A stretch of 53,475 bases of DNA from Cryomorphaceae bacterium (GTDB lineage: Bacteria; Bacteroidota; Bacteroidia; Flavobacteriales_D; Crocinitomicaceae): positions 1 to 53,475 of the forward strand of contig JAIXUE010000019.1 in NCBI GenBank assembly GCA_027483605.1. The letters are read 5' to 3'. Made by a program: the position numbers and the translations under genes. This document shows positions 1,188 through 10,836 of the stretch, piece after piece; positions within the stretch are counted from its first letter, which is position 1; every line of letters starts with the position of its first letter. Below the pieces are notes generated by a model that was not told where the DNA came from, did no database searches, and saw nothing but the letters and a program-made list of their open reading frames with translations.

Positions 1188-1943
1188 TTAGAATCCGAAG
1201 TTGTCAAAACCCGTTTGGGTGAGTTCTTGGTATTTTTCTTCGTTGAACTCGTATAGTAAGGAGGGTTTATGAGGAACTCCGCGCTGTTTTTCTCTTAGGC
1301 TTGATAAGATGTCGAGCTTTTGTATTTTGCGTCTGAAATTGCGCTTGTCTAGGGGTTTGTCTAGGATGGATTCATAGAGGCGGTGCAACTGACTCAAGGT
1401 GAATTTTTCAGGCAAAAGGTTGAAGCCGATGGGCTGTATTTTGATTTTTTGCTTGAGTTTTTCTTTAGCAGCCTGTAAGATCTCGAAGTGGTCAAAGGCG
1501 AGTTCTTTGATTTCATTGACCGGCACCCAATCAGCATTTTTGGCAAATGACGAGGCTTGTGGTTTGTATTGTTGCATCGGTACCAATGTAAAATAAGCGA
1601 CGGTGATTACACGGGCTTCTGGTTCGGCACGGATGCTTTTGAGCCATTCGCGGTCAGATTCTTTATGGATGCGGTCGGGGTCGCCAAAAGCACCCACTTG
1701 CTCCAAATAAATATTGTTGAGGCCAGTGAGTTCGTCTAGAACACGATTGGCGGCCATGTCGAGGTTTTCGTTGTCGTAGATGAGGTTACCAGGAAGGGCC
1801 ATGCGCGGGCCAAATGCCGATGAAATCTCGCCGCGATCGATGAGCAACACAGTGAGTTGTTCGAGGTCAAATCCGAAAATAACGCAGTCAACAGATACGT
1901 TTGGATTGAGTTCTGAATTGATTTTTTTATGAATGTGCTGCAC
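1188..1943 (-). CDS. NrtR-family Nudix transcriptional regulator, probable sugar regulator
   Basis: The protein has 251 residues. An N-terminal Nudix fold covers about residues 10-145 (VSVDCVIFGFDLEQLTVLLI, then ALPGN) and a C-terminal winged-helix domain covers about 155-235 (FTLSQLHRLYESILDKPLDK, NFRRKIQKLDIL), the layout of NrtR and of the Bacteroides arabinose regulator AraR. The Nudix box is damaged: where the consensus has REUxEE this protein has RVLDEL, so two metal-binding glutamates are gone. It is therefore likely a ligand sensor rather than a hydrolase. It is transcribed divergently from the maltose operon across a 72-bp gap that holds a small palindrome. I infer it represses or activates that operon in response to a sugar or sugar phosphate. 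The ligand cannot be read from sequence. Confidence 0.85.
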   Translation of the reverse strand: MQHIHKKINSELNPNVSVDCVIFGFDLEQLTVLLIDRGEISSAFGPRMALPGNLIYDNENLDMAANRVLDELTGLNNIYLEQVGAFGDPDRIHKESDREWLKSIRAEPEARVITVAYFTLVPMQQYKPQASSFAKNADWVPVNEIKELAFDHFEILQAAKEKLKQKIKIQPIGFNLLPEKFTLSQLHRLYESILDKPLDKRNFRRKIQKLDILSSLREKQRGVPHKPSLLYEFNEEKYQELTQTGFDNFGF

Positions 1944-1960
1944 GTATGAAGTATTATCTA

Positions 1961-1968
1961 TATATTTG
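1961..1968 (+). promoter_or_regulatory. Putative -7 element of the maltose operon promoter
   Basis: TATATTTG matches the Bacteroidota -7 consensus TAnnTTTG. It lies 47 bp upstream of the kinase ATG. I see no good TTG at 17-23 bp upstream, which may mean the promoter needs an activator. Confidence 0.4.
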
Positions 1969-1972
1969 GATA

Positions 1973-1987
1973 GTGTAAAATTGACAC
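1973..1987. promoter_or_regulatory. Candidate operator palindrome (GTGT-N7-ACAC)
   Basis: A 15-bp inverted repeat with 4-bp arms, GTGT and ACAC, lies between the divergent regulator and kinase genes. It falls between the two opposing promoter motifs TATATTTG (plus) and TAGCTTTG (minus), where one bound protein could control both. The arms are short, so chance is possible. Confidence 0.35.
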
Positions 1988-2013
1988 AAAGCTATCATTC
2001 ACTCTATTACAAA
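1987..2013 (-). promoter_or_regulatory. Putative promoter of the Nudix regulator gene
   Basis: On the minus strand TTTG (2013-2010) is followed after 15 bp by TAGCTTTG (1994-1987), a match to TAnnTTTG. The spacer is shorter than the usual 19-21 bp. The start codon is 43 bp downstream. Confidence 0.35.
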
Positions 2014-2015
2014 CT

Positions 2016-2879
2016 ATGTATTTCATTATTGAAAGTGGTTCTACCAAAAGCGACTGGGTATTAGTAGACAACAAAAATAACCAAAGTTTTTTTTCAACAA
2101 TGGGCTTCAATCCATATTTTCATTCAGCTGACATCATCGAGGCTGAGCTGAAGAAAAACACAGATATCTTACAATTGGCTTCCGGCATTAAAGGTCTTTA
2201 CTTTTATGGTGCTGGTTGTTCAAGTCCCGAACTCAACCAAATTGTGGAAGAAGGCTTGCGCCGTATTTTTCCAGCGGCAGCTATTTTAGTAGAACACGAT
2301 TTGCTTGCTTGTGCTTATGCTACCTACAACGGTAAGCCAGGAATCTCCTGCATTATCGGAACCGGAAGTAACTCTTGTTATTTTGATGGGCAGCATTTGT
2401 TAGAAGAAGTGCCCGCTTTGGGTTATGTGCTCGGAGACGAAGGCAGTGGCAGTTACTTTGGAAAGCAATTGCTCTCTTCATTTTTATATCACCACTTGCC
2501 TGCAGAGATTGAGGCAGATTTCATCGCTACCTACCAACTCGATAAAGACCTGATTGTCGATCGTGTCTACCGCGAGCCAAACGCCAATGTATTTATTGCG
2601 TCATTCATGCCCTTTATTGCCAAGCACAAAGCGCATCCCTTCTTTTCAGAAATGGTCTATAATGGTTTCAAGCATTTCATGAAAGTGCACGTATGTTGTT
2701 ACGATGACTACCACAACACAGAAGTTCATTTTGTAGGTTCACTCTCTAAAATTTTTGAAAAAGAATTATTTGAAGCAGCAGCCGAATTGCAAATTCAAAT
2801 TGCCTCCATTATTCAAAAGCCCGTTATTGGCCTTGTTAATTACCACCTCAAGTACATTCTTAAAACAGAAACTGTTTAA
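2016..2879 (+). CDS. BadF/BadG-type sugar kinase (N-acetylglucosamine-kinase-like)
   Basis: The protein has 287 residues and the actin-like ATPase fold of the BadF/BadG/BcrA family that includes eukaryotic-type GlcNAc kinase. The phosphate-1 motif is ESGSTKSDW at residues 6-14, a central IIGTGSNSCY and LGDEGSGSYFG follow at about 114-153, and FVGSLS marks the C-terminal ATP site. It is the first gene of the maltose operon and is followed after 2 bp by the amylase. In that context it most likely phosphorylates the free glucose released by maltose phosphorylase (inference); annotation by family alone would call it an N-acetylglucosamine kinase. No other hexokinase is present in the window. Confidence 0.82.
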   Translation: MYFIIESGSTKSDWVLVDNKNNQSFFSTMGFNPYFHSADIIEAELKKNTDILQLASGIKGLYFYGAGCSSPELNQIVEEGLRRIFPAAAILVEHDLLACAYATYNGKPGISCIIGTGSNSCYFDGQHLLEEVPALGYVLGDEGSGSYFGKQLLSSFLYHHLPAEIEADFIATYQLDKDLIVDRVYREPNANVFIASFMPFIAKHKAHPFFSEMVYNGFKHFMKVHVCCYDDYHNTEVHFVGSLSKIFEKELFEAAAELQIQIASIIQKPVIGLVNYHLKYILKTETV

Positions 2880-2881
2880 TC

Positions 2882-4204
2882 ATGAAAAAAATCATTAGCT
2901 CCCTTCTTTTTGGCTTTTGTGCCTTGCTTGTAAATGCCCAAGTTTATACCCCTGATTGGGTTAAAAACGCCACCATCTATGAAGTCAATGTGCGTCAGTT
3001 TTCACCTGAAGGCACCTTGGCAGGGGTGCAAGCACAGTTGCCACGACTCAAAGAAATGGGAGTTGATATCCTTTGGCTGATGCCTATTCATCCGATCGGT
3101 GAACTCAACAGAAAAGGATCTTTAGGGAGCTACTACGCCGTGCGTGATTACAGAAAAGTAAACCCTGAATTCGGTACGCAGGAAGATTTTACAGCACTTG
3201 TTAATGCCGCACATGAGCTAGGCATGAAAGTTATACTCGACTGGGTAGCCAATCACACTTCACCGGATCACATCTGGATTCAGCAAGGAAAATTGAGTTG
3301 GTATACACTAGACAAAGAAGGAAAAGTTCAGCCAACAATTGGCACCGACTGGACCGACGTAGCCGATTTGAATTTCGACAACCCTGACATGCGTCAAGAA
3401 ATGATTAGCTGCATGTCACAATGGGTACAAGAATACGATGTCGATGGTTTTCGTTGCGATGTCGCAGGTTGGGTGCCCATGGACTTTTGGTTAGAAGCCC
3501 GCACCGCACTCAATCAAATCAAACCAGTATTTATGTTGGCAGAAGCTGAAGGAAATGAACTCTACAAAGCTTTTGAAATGACATATGGTTGGGAATTGCA
3601 CCACATTATGAACGACATTGCCAAAGGAAAGAAAAATGCAAGCGACATACATGCTTTCTTTAGCAAACCGGCTTTGCCTAACAACGGTTTTCAAATGAAT
3701 TTCACTTCCAACCACGACGAAAATTCTTGGAACGGTACTGAAATGGAGCGCTTGGGCCCTGCACTTGAAGCTTTTGCAGTTTTTGCCGCTACAATAGACG
3801 GCATGCCCTTGGTATACAACGGGCAAGAAACTTCATTAGACCGTCGCCTCAAGTTTTTTGAGAAAGACCCAATTAACTGGGATAAAATGGATAAAGTATC
3901 CTTTTATCAAACGCTTTTAAATCTTCATCAAACACACCCAGCCCTGATCGTGGGGAAAGGTCAGACAAAGCCAAGATTTCTATCCAAAGCAACAGACAAA
4001 GCCCATTTGGTTTATGTGAGAGAAAAAGACGGTCGTCAAGTTTTAGTCGTTCTGAATTTGAGCGCAGAGGCCAAAACAATCTCTTTTACCGACGAGGCCA
4101 CTGCGGGCAATTTCACCGATCTTTTCACCCAACAAGCTGTCTCGTTTAAACCAGCGCACAGCTTCAAGCTAGGTCCTTGGGCTTATGCGGTTTATGTTCG
4201 CTAA
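2882..4204 (+). CDS. Periplasmic GH13 alpha-amylase family enzyme
   Basis: The protein has 440 residues with a signal peptide ending near residue 19 (LVNAQ) and no lipobox, so it should be periplasmic. The four GH13 motifs are present: DWVANHT at 120-126, GFRCDVAG at 189-196 with the nucleophile D193, FMLAEAEG at about 217-224 with the acid/base E221, and FTSNHDEN at 274-281 with the transition-state Asp 279. A short beta C-domain ends the protein. It resembles the small amylases that trim maltodextrins before uptake in Bacteroidota. It sits between the kinase and the sugar transporter genes, 19 bp before the latter. Confidence 0.9.
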   Translation: MKKIISSLLFGFCALLVNAQVYTPDWVKNATIYEVNVRQFSPEGTLAGVQAQLPRLKEMGVDILWLMPIHPIGELNRKGSLGSYYAVRDYRKVNPEFGTQEDFTALVNAAHELGMKVILDWVANHTSPDHIWIQQGKLSWYTLDKEGKVQPTIGTDWTDVADLNFDNPDMRQEMISCMSQWVQEYDVDGFRCDVAGWVPMDFWLEARTALNQIKPVFMLAEAEGNELYKAFEMTYGWELHHIMNDIAKGKKNASDIHAFFSKPALPNNGFQMNFTSNHDENSWNGTEMERLGPALEAFAVFAATIDGMPLVYNGQETSLDRRLKFFEKDPINWDKMDKVSFYQTLLNLHQTHPALIVGKGQTKPRFLSKATDKAHLVYVREKDGRQVLVVLNLSAEAKTISFTDEATAGNFTDLFTQQAVSFKPAHSFKLGPWAYAVYVR

Positions 4205-4223: not shown

Positions 4224-5573
4224 ATGCAAACAAAAACCAACCTTTCGTTTTGGCAAATCTGGAACATGAGCTTTGGCTTCATGGGTATCCAATTTGGTTT
4301 TGCCCTTCAAGGCGGCTATATGTCACGGATCTTTCAGACGCTCGGTGCGTCACCAGAAGAAATTCCTGGCTTATGGATTGCAGCCCCGCTCACAGGTCTT
4401 ATTGTACAACCCATTATCGGTTTTCTATCTGATCGCACTTGGTCAGTGCGTTTTGGGCGCCGCAAGCCCTATTTTTTGATTGGCGCCATTCTCAGTTCAC
4501 TTGCGCTTTTCTTTGTGCCTTATTCCTCAACGCTCTGGATTGCGGCAGGCTTCCTCTGGATGCTCGACGCCTCTATCAACATCAGCATGGAGCCTTTTCG
4601 TGCACTTGTCGCCGATAAATTACCAGAGGCTCAGCGTTCTTATGGTTTTATTTTACAGACGCTCATCATTGGAATAGGTACATGGGTAGCTTCGAATTTA
4701 CCTTGGATGGTTTCCAAGTTAGGTTTTTCTGAGGACACAGCAGCAAAAGGAATTCCGATGAATGTAAAGGTTGCTTTTGCGATTGGTGCCGTCATCTTCC
4801 TCGGGAGTATTCTATATACCATATTTACAACTGAAGAATATCCTCCATCTGATGAAGATGCATTTAAAAAAGAAAAGAAAAACGCCAATTTCCTCAAAGA
4901 TTTCTGGGGTTCTGTAAGCAGCATGTCTCCAACGATGCTGAAGCTCGGACTGATTCAATTCTTTAGTTGGTTTGCTTTTTTTACCATGTGGAGCATGGCC
5001 ACACCTGCACTAACTGCTCATTTATATGACGCGCCATCGCCAAGTGAGTCCTTGTCTAAAATTGATCCAGAAGCTTTTGAACTCATGAATTCCTCATTTC
5101 AAAAAGCAGCCGACGCTGTCGGTTCCAATATGGGTGTTTACGGCCTTACTTCTATGCTTTTTGCACTTGCCCTCACATTTTATGCAGCAAAATATAGCGT
5201 GAATCGCAAATGGGTGCATTTGCTTTCATTGGTAGCTGGTGGTCTGGGCTTTATACTCATGAGCGTGATCTCTGGCCCCGAATACCTTTGGTTCTGTTTT
5301 GCACTTATTGGTTTTGCTTGGGGAAGTATCTTATCGATGCCTTATGCCATGCTGTCTAGCACAGTAGATGAAAGCAAAATGGGCCTCATGATGGGCTTGT
5401 TCAATATGTTTATCGTGATTCCTCAGATTATTGCTGCTTTGGGAGGTGTAAACCTGCTTTCCGGGTTATTCGGAGACGGTCCAATTGCACCAATGCTGTT
5501 AGCCGGTGCTTCTCTTGTTTTAGCAGGCTTACTCAACTTGATTCTTACCGACAAGCAAATCACGCGTGGATAA
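4224..5573 (+). CDS. MFS sugar transporter, SLC45/sucrose-transporter-like
   Basis: The protein has 449 residues and about 12 hydrophobic segments, with a hydrophilic loop near residues 212-230 and another near 270-300. The loop after helix 2-3 carries [16 protein letters not shown], the RxGRRxP signature of the SLC45/plant SUT group of disaccharide/H+ symporters. The gene lies between amylase and mutase/phosphorylase, so maltose (or short maltodextrin) import into the cytoplasm is the likely role. This carrier replaces a phosphotransferase or ABC importer. Its stop codon is one base before the ATG of the mutase gene. Confidence 0.88.
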
Positions 5574-5574
5574 C

Positions 5575-6210
5575 ATGAAAGCTTTTTTATTCGACCTCGA
5601 CGGTGTCTTGGTCAGTACAGAACACAACCATTTTTTAGCTTGGCAGCGCTGTGCCCATTCATTGGGAATTGAATTTACCGAGAAAGAAAATGAACTTTTG
5701 AAAGGGGTGAGCAGGGTAGATTCGCTCAAAAAAATCCTTGAATTAGGTTCAAAAACCATTTCAGATACCGAGTTTGAGGCCTTGTTAAAAAGCAAAAATG
5801 ATTTTTATTTGGATTCCATCCAAGAACTAAATCAAAGTAATTTGCTGCCGGGTGTTTTGGACTTGTTAAATCAAGCGAAAGAACGCGGAATTTTACTAGG
5901 AGTGGGTTCTTCTAGTAAGAATGCCAATTTCATTTTAGACAAACTCCGTATCCGTTCCTATTTTCAGGTCGTGATCGACGGAAACGGCGTTCAAGACCCC
6001 AAACCACATCCGGAAGTCTTTCTCAATGGAGCTAAGGCTTTGGGTCTTGACCCATCGGTATGTATGGTTTTTGAAGATGCAGCATCTGGTATTGCCGCAG
6101 CAAAAGCAGGCGGATTCACTGCCGTTGGAGTAGGCAATCCAAACATTAAAGACCAAGCAGATATATATTTGAACGATTTGACAGCATTTAGAGTAGAGCA
6201 ACATGCGTAA
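5575..6210 (+). CDS. pgmB: Beta-phosphoglucomutase (HAD family)
   Basis: The protein has 211 residues. The HAD nucleophile motif is FDLDGVLV at residues 5-12, with the Asp pair DLD. A helical cap follows, then GSSSKN for motif II, and KPHPEVF with VFEDAASGIAAAKAGG for motifs III and IV. The start chosen is the ATG one base after the transporter stop; an upstream GTG in frame would add three residues and overlap the transporter. The enzyme converts beta-glucose-1-phosphate to glucose-6-phosphate. The next gene, a GH65 phosphorylase, makes that substrate and overlaps it by 8 bp, so the two are translationally coupled. Confidence 0.93.
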   Translation: MKAFLFDLDGVLVSTEHNHFLAWQRCAHSLGIEFTEKENELLKGVSRVDSLKKILELGSKTISDTEFEALLKSKNDFYLDSIQELNQSNLLPGVLDLLNQAKERGILLGVGSSSKNANFILDKLRIRSYFQVVIDGNGVQDPKPHPEVFLNGAKALGLDPSVCMVFEDAASGIAAAKAGGFTAVGVGNPNIKDQADIYLNDLTAFRVEQHA

Positions 6211-8485
6211 TTTATTTGACATTGATCCTTGGAAGATCATCGAAAGCAAATTTGACCAGAGTAAACAACAACAAGCCGAAAGTATTTTTAGTATCGGCAA
6301 TGGTTCATTTGGCCAGCGCGCCAATTTTGAAGAAAAATACAGTGGGCCTTCTTTACAAGGAAGCTACATAGGTGGCGTTTATTACCCGGACAAAACACGC
6401 GTTGGGTGGTGGAAAAACGGTTATCCAGAATATTTCGCCAAAGTTGTGAACTCTACCAACTGGATCGGCATAGACATCAGCATTGACGGCGAACAGCTCG
6501 ATCTCAACGTTCAGCAAGTGAAGTATTTTCACCGAGAACTGGATATGCAAAAAGGTTTGCTCAAAAGAACAGTCCGCGTTGTTTTTGGTAGCGGTAAAGA
6601 ACTTGAAATTGAGAGCATTCGCTTTTGCTCAATGGCCCGCGAAGAAATTGCAGCTATTTCTTACGCTGTGACACCACTTAATTTCAGCGGCAATATCAAG
6701 TTTACGCCATATCTAGACGGCAATGTAAGCAACCACGACGCCAACTACGATGAATTCTTTTGGCAAGAAGATGCCCGCAAAGTAGATTTGCAGAAGGGTA
6801 TCTTGTGTACGCGTACTAAAAAAACAGCTTTTTGCGTGGCTATTGCCATGCGTTTCAGCTTTTGGAGAGAGCAAGAATTGCTTGCGATCCATCCGAACGT
6901 AGCCCAACGTGAGCTTTATGTGGAAAACAATTTTGAGCATTACCTCGAGCAAGGAGTGCGTTTTACCCTTAAAAAGTATGTTGCAGTAACATCCACCATT
7001 AACCACTCTGAGTTTGAACTCTCTGCCAAAGCCATCAAGCGCGTACGCGATGCTTACACCACTGGTTTTGATACTTTGCGCGCTGAACACGAAGCAGCTT
7101 GGGCCGATATCTGGAAAAGCGCCGATATTTCCATTGAGGGCGATGTCGCTGCTCAGCAAGGTATCCGTTTCAATATCTTTCACCTGTACCAAACTTATAC
7201 GGGTAAAAATGCGAAGCTCAACATTGGGCCCAAAGGTTTTACTGGTGAAAAATACGGTGGCGCAACTTATTGGGATACAGAAGCCTACTGCTTGCCCTTT
7301 TACCTCAAAACTGCAGATCCATCAGTGGCAAGACAGCTTTTGGTATATCGCTACAACCACCTCGACCGCGCTATAGAAAATGCCGAAAAACTCGGTTTCA
7401 AAGACGGTGCAGCGCTCTACCCAATGGTAACCATGAACGGCGAAGAGTGTCACAACGAGTGGGAAATCACCTTTGAAGAAATTCATCGAAATGGGGCCAT
7501 TGCCTTTGGGATTTACAATTATGTGCGCCACACCGGCGACCACGCTTACTTAGACACTTACGGCTTGCCAGTTTTAGCAGGAATCGCGCGCTTTTGGGCG
7601 CAGCGCTTCAATTGGTCAGCAGCCAAGCAAGCCTACGTGATGCTCGGTGTTACGGGCCCCAACGAATACGAAAACAATGTCAATAACAATTGGTATACCA
7701 ACTACATTGCACGTTGGTGTATTTCTTATTGCTTAGAAGTCAACGCTAAGGTCAATGCCGACCTCCCTCAAAAGTTGTCTGCCCAAGAAATTGACAAATT
7801 CCAACACATTGCAGCCAACGTTTACTTTCCAACTTTGGATGGTACTTCCATCTTTTTGCAGCAAGATGGCTTCATGGATAAAGAACAGCTCAGCACTGCT
7901 GATCTTCCTATAGCGGAGCGTCCAATTAACCAACACTGGTCCTGGGACCGCATTTTGCGCTCTATATTTATCAAACAGGCTGATGTTTTGCAAGGTCTTT
8001 ATCTTTTTGAAGACCATTTCTCTGAGGACATCATTCGCGAAAATTTCGACTTCTACGAACCCAAAACCGTTCACGAATCTTCCTTATCTCCTTGTGTACA
8101 CGTGATTTTAGCGGCAAAAATCAAGCGTCTAGATAAAGCGCTCGAATTGTACCTTCGAACAAGCCGACTAGACCTCGACGATTACAATCACGAAGCCGAT
8201 GAGGGCTTGCACATTACTTCAATGGCAGGTACCTGGATGTCTGTTGTAGAAGGCTTGGCGGGCGTTCGTGTGTATGAAAATGGCTTGTCAATAAACCCGC
8301 AAATTCCAAAGCCTTGGAGCAGTTATTCCTTTCAAATTCGCTATCAAAATCAACCACTAGCCATAGCGATCAGTCAGCATAAAGTAACTATTACTAACTT
8401 AGGTTCAGCGCTGATTTCATGTGAACTAGCAGGTGCCGCCGTTCAAATTGAGGTAGGTGCCACGCATGAAGCAGCACTGAAGTAA
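6203..8485 (+). CDS. GH65 maltose phosphorylase
   Basis: The protein has 760 residues, the normal size of GH65 phosphorylases. An N-terminal beta-sandwich covers about residues 1-270, an (alpha/alpha)6 barrel about 310-680, and a small beta C-domain the rest. The general acid is Glu488 in GVTGPNEYENN, aligned with the acid of Lactobacillus maltose phosphorylase. FDIDPW and SIFSIGNGSFGQR at the N terminus are family landmarks. No signal peptide is present, so it acts in the cytoplasm: maltose plus phosphate to glucose plus beta-glucose-1-phosphate. The overlapping pgmB uses that product. Kojibiose or trehalose phosphorylase activity is possible by family, but the amylase-rich context favours maltose. 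Confidence 0.92.
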   Translation: MRNLFDIDPWKIIESKFDQSKQQQAESIFSIGNGSFGQRANFEEKYSGPSLQGSYIGGVYYPDKTRVGWWKNGYPEYFAKVVNSTNWIGIDISIDGEQLDLNVQQVKYFHRELDMQKGLLKRTVRVVFGSGKELEIESIRFCSMAREEIAAISYAVTPLNFSGNIKFTPYLDGNVSNHDANYDEFFWQEDARKVDLQKGILCTRTKKTAFCVAIAMRFSFWREQELLAIHPNVAQRELYVENNFEHYLEQGVRFTLKKYVAVTSTINHSEFELSAKAIKRVRDAYTTGFDTLRAEHEAAWADIWKSADISIEGDVAAQQGIRFNIFHLYQTYTGKNAKLNIGPKGFTGEKYGGATYWDTEAYCLPFYLKTADPSVARQLLVYRYNHLDRAIENAEKLGFKDGAALYPMVTMNGEECHNEWEITFEEIHRNGAIAFGIYNYVRHTGDHAYLDTYGLPVLAGIARFWAQRFNWSAAKQAYVMLGVTGPNEYENNVNNNWYTNYIARWCISYCLEVNAKVNADLPQKLSAQEIDKFQHIAANVYFPTLDGTSIFLQQDGFMDKEQLSTADLPIAERPINQHWSWDRILRSIFIKQADVLQGLYLFEDHFSEDIIRENFDFYEPKTVHESSLSPCVHVILAAKIKRLDKALELYLRTSRLDLDDYNHEADEGLHITSMAGTWMSVVEGLAGVRVYENGLSINPQIPKPWSSYSFQIRYQNQPLAIAISQHKVTITNLGSALISCELAGAAVQIEVGATHEAALK

Positions 8486-8496
8486 TTCAGGTTGCC

Positions 8497-10836
8497 ATGA
8501 AAAAGATTTTATTGTTTTGTCTAGGCTTGTTAAGTGCTAAAGCACTCACCGCACAAGTAAATCCGACCAACAGACAAGTTGTTTTGCAAGCCTACTGGTG
8601 GGATTACTGGAACACCAACTATCCGAATGGTTGGGCCAATTACCTGACCGAACTTGCTCCGCGCTTGGCAGAACTCGGTGTGGATGCCATTTGGATCCCG
8701 CCCACCATCAAAAATGCTGGCACGAATAGCGTTGGCTATTCACCTTTCGACCACTACGACCTCGGTGACAAATTTCAAAAGAACAGCACCAAAACCCGCA
8801 TTGGTGACAAAGACGAACTTTTGCGCATGGTGGCTGTCATGCACGCCAATGGCATCGATGTGATTCAAGATGTTGTTCTGAATCATGTCAGCAACGCAGG
8901 TAGTGCCAATGGTGCAGGTGGCCAAGATCCTGTCGCCATGGACGACGGCCAAAACAACCGTTACAAAAACTTTCGTTACGTGAGCTTTAAGACACCTGCT
9001 TCAGCGGAGAGTGCAAGTAATTATTTGGCTCGTGAAGGTCGCTTTTCAAAAAATTGGCAAAATTTTTATCCTAACAACAATAACTTGTGTTGTACCAACG
9101 ACATCAATTCACCTTATTGGGGGCCGGATATTTCCTTTGAAAGCAATGCTTTCGGAATGTCTTCCAATGCTTTATATAATCCAACTCAAAGTTCTGATTA
9201 CATGCGTAATGGAATGCGAAATTGGCTCATTTGGTATAAAAAACAAGTGGGTTTCGATGGTGTCAGACTCGATGCTGTAAAACATTTTCCGACTTATGTG
9301 GCAGAGGATGTACTTTGGAACTTACAATATGGTGCCATGTGGGCAAGTGGCGGCCCTGAGTTTTTTGCAGTGGGCGAATGGGTGGGCAGTACTGCGCAAC
9401 TAGACGCTTGGGCCGATGCTGTTCAAAACCGCGCGGGTACTTTTGATTTCAATTTGCGTTTTGCACTCTCTGCAATGGTTAGTTCGAATGGCAACTACGA
9501 TTTAAGTCAAATTCCAGCTCAGCAACAGCAAAATCGCCAACGCACCGTTCCTTTTGTCAATAACCACGATACATTCAGGCCGCAGCTCTCTGCTCAGGGC
9601 AATTATACTGGTTGGAATACAGGCTCAGAACTGAGTCCGCATATTGAACCCAACGACGGTCGTAATTCGGCAGCACATGCTATTGCACTGGCAGTGGATG
9701 GCGCACCGCAACTTTTTTTTGAAGATCTTTTCAATATAGGCTACAATGGAAATCGTTTTGGCCACCAACCAACAGATGCGGCTGCGCTACCATTAGACAG
9801 CGATGTAGCAAATTTGTTGTGGTGTCATCAAAACCTACGCTTTAAAGACGGTGCTTATTTTGTGCGCTGGCAAGCGCCAGACGCGCTTGTGATTGAGCGT
9901 GGTGCCAAGGCCTTGATCGGGATCACAGATCAATGGACGCAATGGCAACATTTAACAGGTGTTCAGACCAACTGGCCCGACGGCACTGTATTAGAAGACT
10001 ATTCGGGCGCCAACAGCAATCCCACAACGGTTTATGGAGGTGGTAAAGTGAATATTTCTATTCCTCCTTGCGATGGCAGTGCCAACTTAGGTAGAAGAGG
10101 TTACTGCGTTTGGGGGCCTGTAGGAATTGACACCAATTACCAGCGCCCGTCTAAAAATGTGGTTCAGGAATGGGAAATGAACGACGACCTCGGTGATCGC
10201 CACGCCAATTCGCTGCAGCAAGGCGGTAAATTGCCCAACAATAGCCTCGAATGCAGGGTGGTGGGCCGCATCTACGCCAAGGCAGGGCAAGAAGTTCAGA
10301 TCGAGTGGTATCCGAGTGCGCCCAATTTAGCGCTCACACTTGGTGTGCTCGATAAAAACTGTACGCCAATAGATTCGCTCACTCAAACAGGCAACGGTGT
10401 TTTCACTTTTGTACCTACTTACAATGGATGGTATACGATTCGCTTGCGCAATGCAACAGCGACGCAAGCCGGGCAGCATTGTTGGGTCAAAGCCATTTAT
10501 GAAGCCCCTGCTGTTGTTCAGACCAACGAAGTCAAGAACAAATGTGCTTGTGCTTTTACAGAGCCCGGAATTGGTTTAGAAGAGTTTGCCGATTTGGAGG
10601 TGACGGTTTTCCCGAATCCGACCAATGGACAATTCAAGATTGCGTTATCTGAAGGCTTGTATTTAGAAAATTTGGCTATCATTGATGTGCTAGGTAAGTC
10701 CACAGACCTTCATTTCGTAGCATTGTCTGACAAAGAATACCAAGTTCAAGTCAATGATTTAGAAAACGGATTGTATTGGCTCAGCATTCAAACCAATCAA
10801 GGAAAGGTATTCAAACCAATTGAATTAGCGCCTTGA
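8497..10836 (+). CDS. Secreted GH13 alpha-amylase with T9SS sorting domain
   Basis: The protein has 779 residues. A signal peptide ends near residue 19 (LTAQ). The GH13 barrel has DVVLNH at 125-130, GFDGVRLDAVKH at 252-263 with nucleophile D259, AVGEWVG at 291-297 with acid/base E294, and FVNNHDTF at 353-360 with D358, most like the liquefying amylases of subfamily 5. An amylase C-domain and a beta-sandwich region follow. The last ~75 residues (VFPNPTNGQFKIAL to GLYWLSIQTNQGKVFKPIEL) are a type A T9SS C-terminal domain, so it should reach the cell surface or medium. It is the last gene of the maltose operon. Its stop abuts the stop of the convergent gene with no base between. Confidence 0.92.
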   Translation: MKKILLFCLGLLSAKALTAQVNPTNRQVVLQAYWWDYWNTNYPNGWANYLTELAPRLAELGVDAIWIPPTIKNAGTNSVGYSPFDHYDLGDKFQKNSTKTRIGDKDELLRMVAVMHANGIDVIQDVVLNHVSNAGSANGAGGQDPVAMDDGQNNRYKNFRYVSFKTPASAESASNYLAREGRFSKNWQNFYPNNNNLCCTNDINSPYWGPDISFESNAFGMSSNALYNPTQSSDYMRNGMRNWLIWYKKQVGFDGVRLDAVKHFPTYVAEDVLWNLQYGAMWASGGPEFFAVGEWVGSTAQLDAWADAVQNRAGTFDFNLRFALSAMVSSNGNYDLSQIPAQQQQNRQRTVPFVNNHDTFRPQLSAQGNYTGWNTGSELSPHIEPNDGRNSAAHAIALAVDGAPQLFFEDLFNIGYNGNRFGHQPTDAAALPLDSDVANLLWCHQNLRFKDGAYFVRWQAPDALVIERGAKALIGITDQWTQWQHLTGVQTNWPDGTVLEDYSGANSNPTTVYGGGKVNISIPPCDGSANLGRRGYCVWGPVGIDTNYQRPSKNVVQEWEMNDDLGDRHANSLQQGGKLPNNSLECRVVGRIYAKAGQEVQIEWYPSAPNLALTLGVLDKNCTPIDSLTQTGNGVFTFVPTYNGWYTIRLRNATATQAGQHCWVKAIYEAPAVVQTNEVKNKCACAFTEPGIGLEEFADLEVTVFPNPTNGQFKIALSEGLYLENLAIIDVLGKSTDLHFVALSDKEYQVQVNDLENGLYWLSIQTNQGKVFKPIELAP

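Follow-up and report, generated by a model that had tools for sequence, protein, structure and literature searches.

A Nudix-fold regulator of the NrtR/AraR family that probably governs glucose catabolism in Bacteroidota

The window analysed here, 53,475 nucleotides of contig JAIXUE010000019.1 from a Cryomorphaceae bacterium (assembly GCA_027483605.1), carries a regulator gene, here called REG, that is transcribed divergently from an operon led by a sugar kinase gene, here called KIN. A first-pass annotation made from the sequence had described a Nudix plus winged-helix regulator of the NrtR type facing a kinase-amylase-MFS-pgmB-GH65-amylase operon across a gap with a palindrome at 1973–1987, and the protein family, the operon and the palindrome are all confirmed. 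In line with its remark on NAD and pentose genes, none was recognised among the nine genes scanned between positions 588 and 11205. In many Bacteroidota the remit of REG is probably the whole of glucose breakdown, and not maltose alone. The features of the locus are as follows.

1188–1943, minus strand: REG, a regulator of the NrtR/AraR family that joins a Nudix-like sensor to a DNA-binding winged helix (open reading frame, Pfam, fold model)
1961–1968, plus strand: TATATTTG, the −7 box predicted for the kinase operon promoter (box match; kept in the genus)
1972–1987, no strand: operator AGTGTAAAATTGACAC, with the palindrome GTGT-N7-ACAC at 1973–1987 (conservation and published BtAraR sites)
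1987–1994, minus strand: TAGCTTTG, possible −7 box of REG abutting the operator (box match)
2016–2879, plus strand: KIN, a BadF/NagK/MurK-type sugar kinase and possible glucokinase (profile and structure matches)
2882–4204, plus strand: GH13 amylase-type enzyme with a maltogenic-amylase-like C-terminal domain (profile matches)
4224–5573, plus strand: MFS sugar transporter, sucrose/GPH-like but below the cut-off of that model (profile matches)
5566–6210, plus strand: pgmB, beta-phosphoglucomutase (TIGR01990 above cut-off)
6203–8485, plus strand: GH65 enzyme, maltose-phosphorylase-like (NF010380 above cut-off); maltose is the presumed substrate because pgmB adjoins
8497–10836, plus strand: GH13 alpha-amylase, probably secreted, with a sorting tail of the type IX secretion system (profile matches)

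REG is an open reading frame of 251 amino acids with a GTG start codon. It matches the Pfam models NrtR_WHD (E = 1.6e-25), AraR_C (8.5e-12) and NUDIX (8.8e-7), all above cut-off, and Pfam together with AlphaFold fold matches over both domains gives the domain order of the NrtR family, an N-terminal Nudix-like domain followed by a C-terminal NrtR winged helix. The catalytic Nudix box is broken, the pattern GX5EX7REUXEEXGU being absent. The nearest solved structure is that of BtAraR (BT0354; 5bs6; E = 4.4e-48), the L-arabinose repressor of Bacteroides, with Shewanella NrtR behind it at 1.5e-19. A fold search with an AlphaFold model of REG (mean pLDDT 90, pTM 0.87, 31-sequence input) returned BtAraR chains as its top six matches, at 37–38% identity in the fold alignments, followed by the Shewanella protein SoNrtR (3gz5/3gz6), an ADP-ribose-responsive regulator of NAD metabolism that shares fold and domain order with REG. 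BtAraR resembles REG in joining a Nudix-like sensor with a broken box to an AraR_C winged helix. It adjoins arabinose genes and has L-arabinose as its effector, whereas no ara gene was recognised among the window genes scanned around REG; REG also differs in its predicted regulon of glucose catabolism, in having operators at core metabolism genes and in a 15-residue insertion. This insertion, at about residues 92–106, directly follows the ligand-contacting Arg91 and is modelled as a helix over residues 95–104. XylR (BT0791), a predicted xylose regulator, is likewise a sugar-catabolic member of the NrtR family in Bacteroidota (PMC3878776; PMC4666351); compared from descriptions alone, it belongs with a xylose operon, unlike REG. 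The nearest named relatives are uncultured Flavobacteriales (87–88% identity), one of them labelled Crocinitomicaceae. REG is one of two NrtR-type genes in the source genome (2.39 Mb, 50 contigs, 99.9% complete); the other, its paralogue REG2, lies on contig C9.

The palindrome GTGTN7ACAC occurs once in the window, where 0.5 matches are expected by chance and 39 of 100 shuffled sequences contain at least one, so that it is not significant by itself; its conservation across gaps makes it so. The longer form AGTGTN6GACAC is present in all 20 REG-kinase gaps fetched from the same genus. In other families of the order, where REG orthologues are 54–62% identical, the palindrome is perfect in seven of nine gaps, and the remaining two (L035, L036) read GTGTN7ACAA, with the right half altered. 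The first-pass annotation had proposed looking for the palindrome upstream of orthologous operons, and there it does recur. The three sites bound by BtAraR in electrophoretic mobility shift assays, AAGTGTTACTTTTACACC, AGTGTATTTGATACACC and AAGTGTAAAAAAGACACTT, one of which is also in the crystal (PMC4666351, the source also of the BtAraR and SoNrtR residues named here), are likewise GTGT-N7-ACAC, identical to the window operator in half-site and spacing. BtAraR numbering was mapped onto the REG alignment assuming a three-residue tag, and every named residue within the alignment agreed in letter. The DNA contacts Ser163, Asp178, Arg180 and Arg183 are identical in REG, while Lys184, Lys204 and Arg205 are replaced by Arg, His and Lys; given these kept contacts, REG would be expected to use the same operator.

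A promoter box of the form TAnnTTTG starts 10–12 bp ahead of the operator in all 20 REG-kinase loci of the genus. The −7 box of Flavobacterium psychrophilum spans −12 to −5 (PMC9723704), which would place the transcription start of the kinase operon near 1973, on the margin of the operator. Autoregulation of REG through TAGCTTTG is possible; by eye, this box is not kept in several relatives.

Elsewhere in the source genome, the operator points to genes of central carbon metabolism. AGTGTN6GACAC occurs at seven distinct places, against two for the reversed control, and five of the seven lie immediately upstream of REG/kinase, zwf, gapA, pckA and gdhA. NCBIfam models identify zwf, gapA and pckA above their equivalog cut-offs; gdhA, incomplete in the fetched locus, matches the model of the NADP-dependent glutamate dehydrogenase at 3e-142, below cut-off. 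Across 41 genomes of the genus there are 205 matches compared with 52 for the reversed control, each palindromic site being counted once per strand. Individual places were listed for 27 of these genomes, to which the per-gene counts refer, and every listed place outside the known REG-kinase gaps was fetched (109 loci, one of which, L216, proved to be another REG-kinase gap). Upstream of zwf, gapA, pckA or gdhA lay 71 of the 109; 14 lay within coding regions and are probably chance matches (counted by eye, with five less than 50 bp from a called start excluded), and one (L197) lay upstream of pyruvate dehydrogenase E1 alpha. With the source genome included, the operator stands upstream of zwf in 24 of 27 genomes, of pckA in 19, of gapA in 17 and of gdhA in 15.

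The position of the operator relative to the promoter differs among these genes. At all 24 zwf sites TAnnTTTG lies inside the operator, so that a repressor would cover the promoter core. At gapA the box starts 17–19 bp past the operator in 12 of 17 loci, which would make the operator overlap the −33 region. The gdhA box starts 45–46 bp past the operator in 14 of 15 loci, and the pckA site mostly lies 155–172 bp ahead of the called start codon. In many members of the genus, a PBP4B/beta-lactamase-like serine hydrolase gene runs divergently from pckA, and the operator lies between the two (for example L157:3-1466).

Genomes that have lost REG provide a natural knock-out. Intact REG was found in 32 of the 41 genomes (winged-helix match about 90 bits), and G010 holds a fragment. 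A gene-first search for zwf in 30 genomes gave 13 matches, 12 of them with readable upstream DNA (L350, cut off upstream, was left out of the zwf count): the site was present in 10 of 10 cases, comprising eight genomes with REG and two (G020, G033) whose assembly lacks the whole REG-kinase locus, and absent in both REG-lost genomes (G006, G061). The zwf promoter of the latter two reads CTTATTGTACTTTTGACAAATAC compared with the typical CTTAGTGTATTTTTGACACATAC, both half-sites being changed and the −7 box kept. A corresponding search for the kinase matched 15 of 20 genomes; the site was perfect in 10 of 11 further genomes with REG (counting the fragment of G010; the exception, G062, has a last-base mismatch), five of which are also among the 20 fetched loci, and was found in none of three REG-lost genomes, two of which still have the TAnnTTTG box in place. 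G006 and G061 have kept REG2 and contain no exact AGTGTN6GACAC anywhere. G012, a second loss, shows no NrtR match at all and one intragenic site match only. In five more genomes (G001, G018, G020, G031, G033) the kinase and REG matches are both missing and sites are kept; for all of these except G018 we attribute this to assembly gaps, because the GH65 contig ends before the kinase position.

Outside the genus, the gene neighbourhood of REG leads to the same pathway. A FastTree phylogeny was built from 116 regulators plus BtAraR and SoNrtR, after 13 of the 20 same-genus loci were dropped as near-duplicates and with three of the 80 named loci (L104, L131, L143) having no REG reading frame; a length filter removed no further entry. 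Regulators with the 15-residue insertion form one clade (support 0.71). A KIN, GAPA, PFKA or ZWF gene lies within 5 kb of 46 of the 59 regulators with the insertion compared with 6 of the 57 without it (Fisher p about 5e-14, which ignores relatedness). Among the insertion-bearing regulators outside the window's genus, 33 of 46 are linked in this way (KIN 28, PFKA 21, GH65 20, PGMB 20, GAPA 19, ZWF 3). These counts are rough lower bounds, since each kind of neighbour was recognised by its best BLAST match to a single reference and the contigs are often short. REG divergent from pfkA-gapA-kinase-pgmB-GH65 is a frequent order. In examples, NCBIfam confirmed pfkA, gapA and a bifunctional phosphoglucose/phosphomannose isomerase gene; edd, pgl and eda were named by eye, and the isomerase or zwf-pgl-edd-eda stands beside REG in single cases. 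A zwf search at 1e-40 matched none of 15 other-family genomes, though zwf adjoins REG in L078, L079 and L093. The first-pass annotation had held that orthologues beside unrelated operons would speak against its proposal; other operons are indeed found (pfkA, gapA, kinase, sometimes zwf), but they are not unrelated, all of them serving glucose catabolism, which maltose feeds as one source among others. Two arrangements were seen with insertion-less regulators: in Pedobacter (L142:7009-11566, L144, L146, L148) such an NrtR stands between a divergent pfkA-kinase-gapA cluster and, on the opposite flank, another kinase of the BadF type, and at L044:9676-16058 one adjoins zwf, pgl, edd and eda, which suggests a regulator swap over the same pathway.

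From these comparisons, the likely role of REG, as a sugar-sensing member of the NrtR/AraR family, is to regulate glucose catabolism, a reading to which we assign a probability of about 0.74. In this genus the regulon would consist of the sugar kinase and maltose-phosphorylase pathway together with the central carbon enzymes encoded by zwf, gapA, pckA and gdhA; in other families it would include pfkA and gapA and, in single cases, the isomerase or zwf-pgl-edd-eda genes beside the regulator. Without inducer, a REG dimer would sit on GTGT-N7-ACAC, covering the transcription start of the kinase operon and embracing the zwf −7 box, and these site positions predict repression of both. Maltose phosphorolysis, amylase products or uptake would supply intracellular glucose, which on entering the Nudix-like pocket would move the winged helices and free the operator, in the way that L-arabinose releases BtAraR (PMC4666351). 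The sites at gdhA and pckA lie further upstream, so activation is possible there and would make REG a two-way switch.

Several observations weigh against this reading. The genes pckA, which serves gluconeogenesis, and gdhA do not fit a simple repression of glycolysis. G006 and G061, probably sister genomes, differ hardly at all in the zwf promoter, and REG was probably lost once for the two of them; in G012 zwf is unmatched and unrelated DNA precedes the kinase. G018 (81% complete) has no REG, kinase or GH65 match and yet carries three sites; an assembly gap is likely here too, though no contig end proves it. The node that unites the insertion-bearing regulators has modest support, and the six insertion-less regulators noted above adjoin KIN-, GAPA-, PFKA- or ZWF-type genes as well. 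Eleven of the 13 unlinked members of the insertion clade form one subclade that, where checked, lies beside cellobiose phosphorylase, GH9 or GH5 genes; its scanned neighbours include four GH94 phosphorylases, the others being GH9, GH5 or MFS/GPH transporter genes, which suggests that cellobiose takes the place of maltose in this group. As for the kinase, the closest solved relatives of KIN are N-acetylmuramic acid (MurNAc) and N-acetylglucosamine (GlcNAc) kinases or uncharacterised proteins, and KIN reads Pro-Ala-Leu where MurK has Ser133-Pro134-Leu135 (matched by residue number and a shared GDEGS motif, without alignment; PMC10465942), so that an amino-sugar kinase is possible. The sister branch that adjoins GH94, GH9 or MFS/GPH genes (L090, L097, L099, L102, L115, L133) comes mostly from Bacteroidales-type genomes.

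We consider free D-glucose the most likely effector and a hexose phosphate the next. Glucose is preferred because it is a product of both phosphorylases and a likely substrate of the kinase. Within the genus no gene accompanies REG more constantly than KIN, which is divergent from it in 20 of 20 fetched loci. The source genome gave no match to ROK- or Glk-family kinases, other kinase families not having been searched, which makes KIN the best glucokinase candidate among the families searched. PF12535 and PF01869 searches of this genome likewise gave no match, KIN going unrecognised there by the BadF model.

The pocket keeps the BtAraR ligand contacts Arg34, Arg86 and His131 as Arg37, Arg91 and His152. 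As a mark of the sugar-sensing branch this agreement is weak, because SoNrtR, too, retains every sugar contact in space except Arg34 (PMC4666351). Phe36, Gly48 and Phe49 of BtAraR are replaced by Ile40, Asn and Leu54, changes that may leave more room for a ligand. This bears on the alternative that REG controls the same regulon in response to glucose 6-phosphate, β-glucose 1-phosphate, fructose 6-phosphate or fructose 1,6-bisphosphate, which we regard as possible although rather unlikely. Beyond the loss of the two phenylalanines, which would allow a larger ligand, it could draw on the clade-specific insertion helix after Arg91 and on Arg105 just behind it, invariant across 14 aligned sequences; this arginine is not invariant in the wider set, however, and BtAraR, the sugar-bound member with a structure, binds an unphosphorylated sugar (PMC4666351).

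Four other readings were rejected. That REG responds to ADP-ribose or NAD and ties the oxidoreductase genes gapA, zwf, gdhA and pdhA to the pyridine-nucleotide state is improbable. Several targets do encode NAD(P)-linked enzymes, and the nearest NCBIfam model is that of the ADP-ribose-responsive repressor, though at 123.7 bits it falls far below the cut-off of 400. Asn43, Lys76 and Arg98, which bind the ADP phosphates in SoNrtR, read Ile40, Leu72 and Glu109 in REG, however (compared through the BtAraR positions; PMC4666351), and neither the kinase nor GH65 nor pgmB works with NAD. No NAD gene was recognised beside REG in the window, or beside REG or its sites among the annotated genes, many neighbours being unannotated and no search having been aimed at NAD genes.

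A dedicated maltose regulator, sensing maltose and controlling the adjacent operon only, would account for the maltose operon next to REG, present in 15 of the 20 loci fetched from the genus (L066 shows no more of it than the kinase and an incomplete GH13 gene), and for pgmB and GH65 beside 20 of the 46 insertion-bearing regulators outside the genus. GH65 was found in 27 of the 41 genomes (E ≤ 1e-30), but in 10 of the 32 with intact REG it was not found at this threshold (G003, G017, G019, G025, G026, G029, G030, G032, G062, G063), and completeness reaches 94% or more in six of them. In all ten the kinase still stands beside REG, with the operator perfect in nine and one mismatch in G062. The operators at zwf, gapA, pckA and gdhA, and the pfkA, gapA and zwf neighbours elsewhere, also argue against this reading, and we think it highly improbable. 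Of the first-pass annotation, the type of the regulator, its divergence from the maltose operon and the recurring palindrome are thus supported, and maltose as the common denominator is not.

Very improbable, too, is the assignment of the sites to another factor, above all REG2, with REG merely sharing the motif. REG2 is of the same family and adjoins a GluP-type transporter gene and a glucan polysaccharide utilisation locus, and a single genome speaks for it: G018, where an assembly gap is likely, carries REG2 and three sites but gave no match to REG. Yet REG2 is present in G006 and G061, which lack any exact site, while in G017, G025, G026 and G032 REG is present, REG2 is unmatched and there are seven to nine site matches each. 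In the source genome (L033:4879-13758, contig C9), REG2 overlaps a gene for a GluP-like glucose/galactose MFS transporter ahead of SusC/SusD and endo-beta-glucanase-like genes, which gives this glucan locus a Nudix regulator to itself. The proposal that KIN phosphorylates GlcNAc or MurNAc and that REG regulates amino-sugar genes deserves no more credence, since the solved relatives of KIN speak for it but the neighbours are pfkA, gapA, pgmB, GH65 and zwf, no amino-sugar gene was recognised among the annotated neighbours, and KIN is the likeliest glucokinase of its genome among the families searched.

A wider form of the favoured reading, that a Nudix-fold glucose sensor is a main transcriptional regulator of glycolysis, of entry into the Entner-Doudoroff and pentose-phosphate pathways and of glucose-disaccharide phosphorylases across much of the Bacteroidota, repressing glycolytic promoters and possibly activating pckA and gdhA, is in our view evenly balanced between true and false. 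It would span the Crocinitomicaceae, other Flavobacteriales and the related cellobiose-phosphorylase subclade in Bacteroidales-type genomes. To our knowledge, little is known of the way in which Bacteroidota tune their central glycolysis genes to the sugar available, and the present analysis supplies a regulator, an operator and likely targets that simple binding assays can test. In Firmicutes and Proteobacteria glycolysis is regulated by CggR, HexR and Cra, which belong to protein families unrelated to REG and resemble it in role only: one regulator, several central carbon genes and an effector that is a metabolite of the pathway. If the reading is true, a REG-type sensor would fill the place of these proteins here. 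The analysis also suggests that the Nudix fold has been reused to sense a central sugar, probably glucose. In the papers found, the NrtR-family sugar regulators of Bacteroidota are AraR, for arabinose, and XylR, for xylose (PMC4666351 and PMC3878776). A full-text literature search yielded no Nudix/NrtR regulator of glucose, maltose or glycolysis in this phylum; most subscription-journal papers and preprints were beyond its reach and an earlier mention is possible, but in the literature searched the REG branch of sugar-sensing NrtR/AraR regulators is unreported.

Further sites lie near fatty-acid desaturase, RecQ, sulfatase, AsmA, ketoacyl-synthase and TPR genes, one or two for each, and these genes were set aside as unproven targets. 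In G035 and G002 (L242, L254) the operator stands about 40 bp upstream of the desaturase gene. In the window itself, a gene for a sigma factor of the ECF type (588–1079) lies directly downstream of REG and is kept in many members of the genus.

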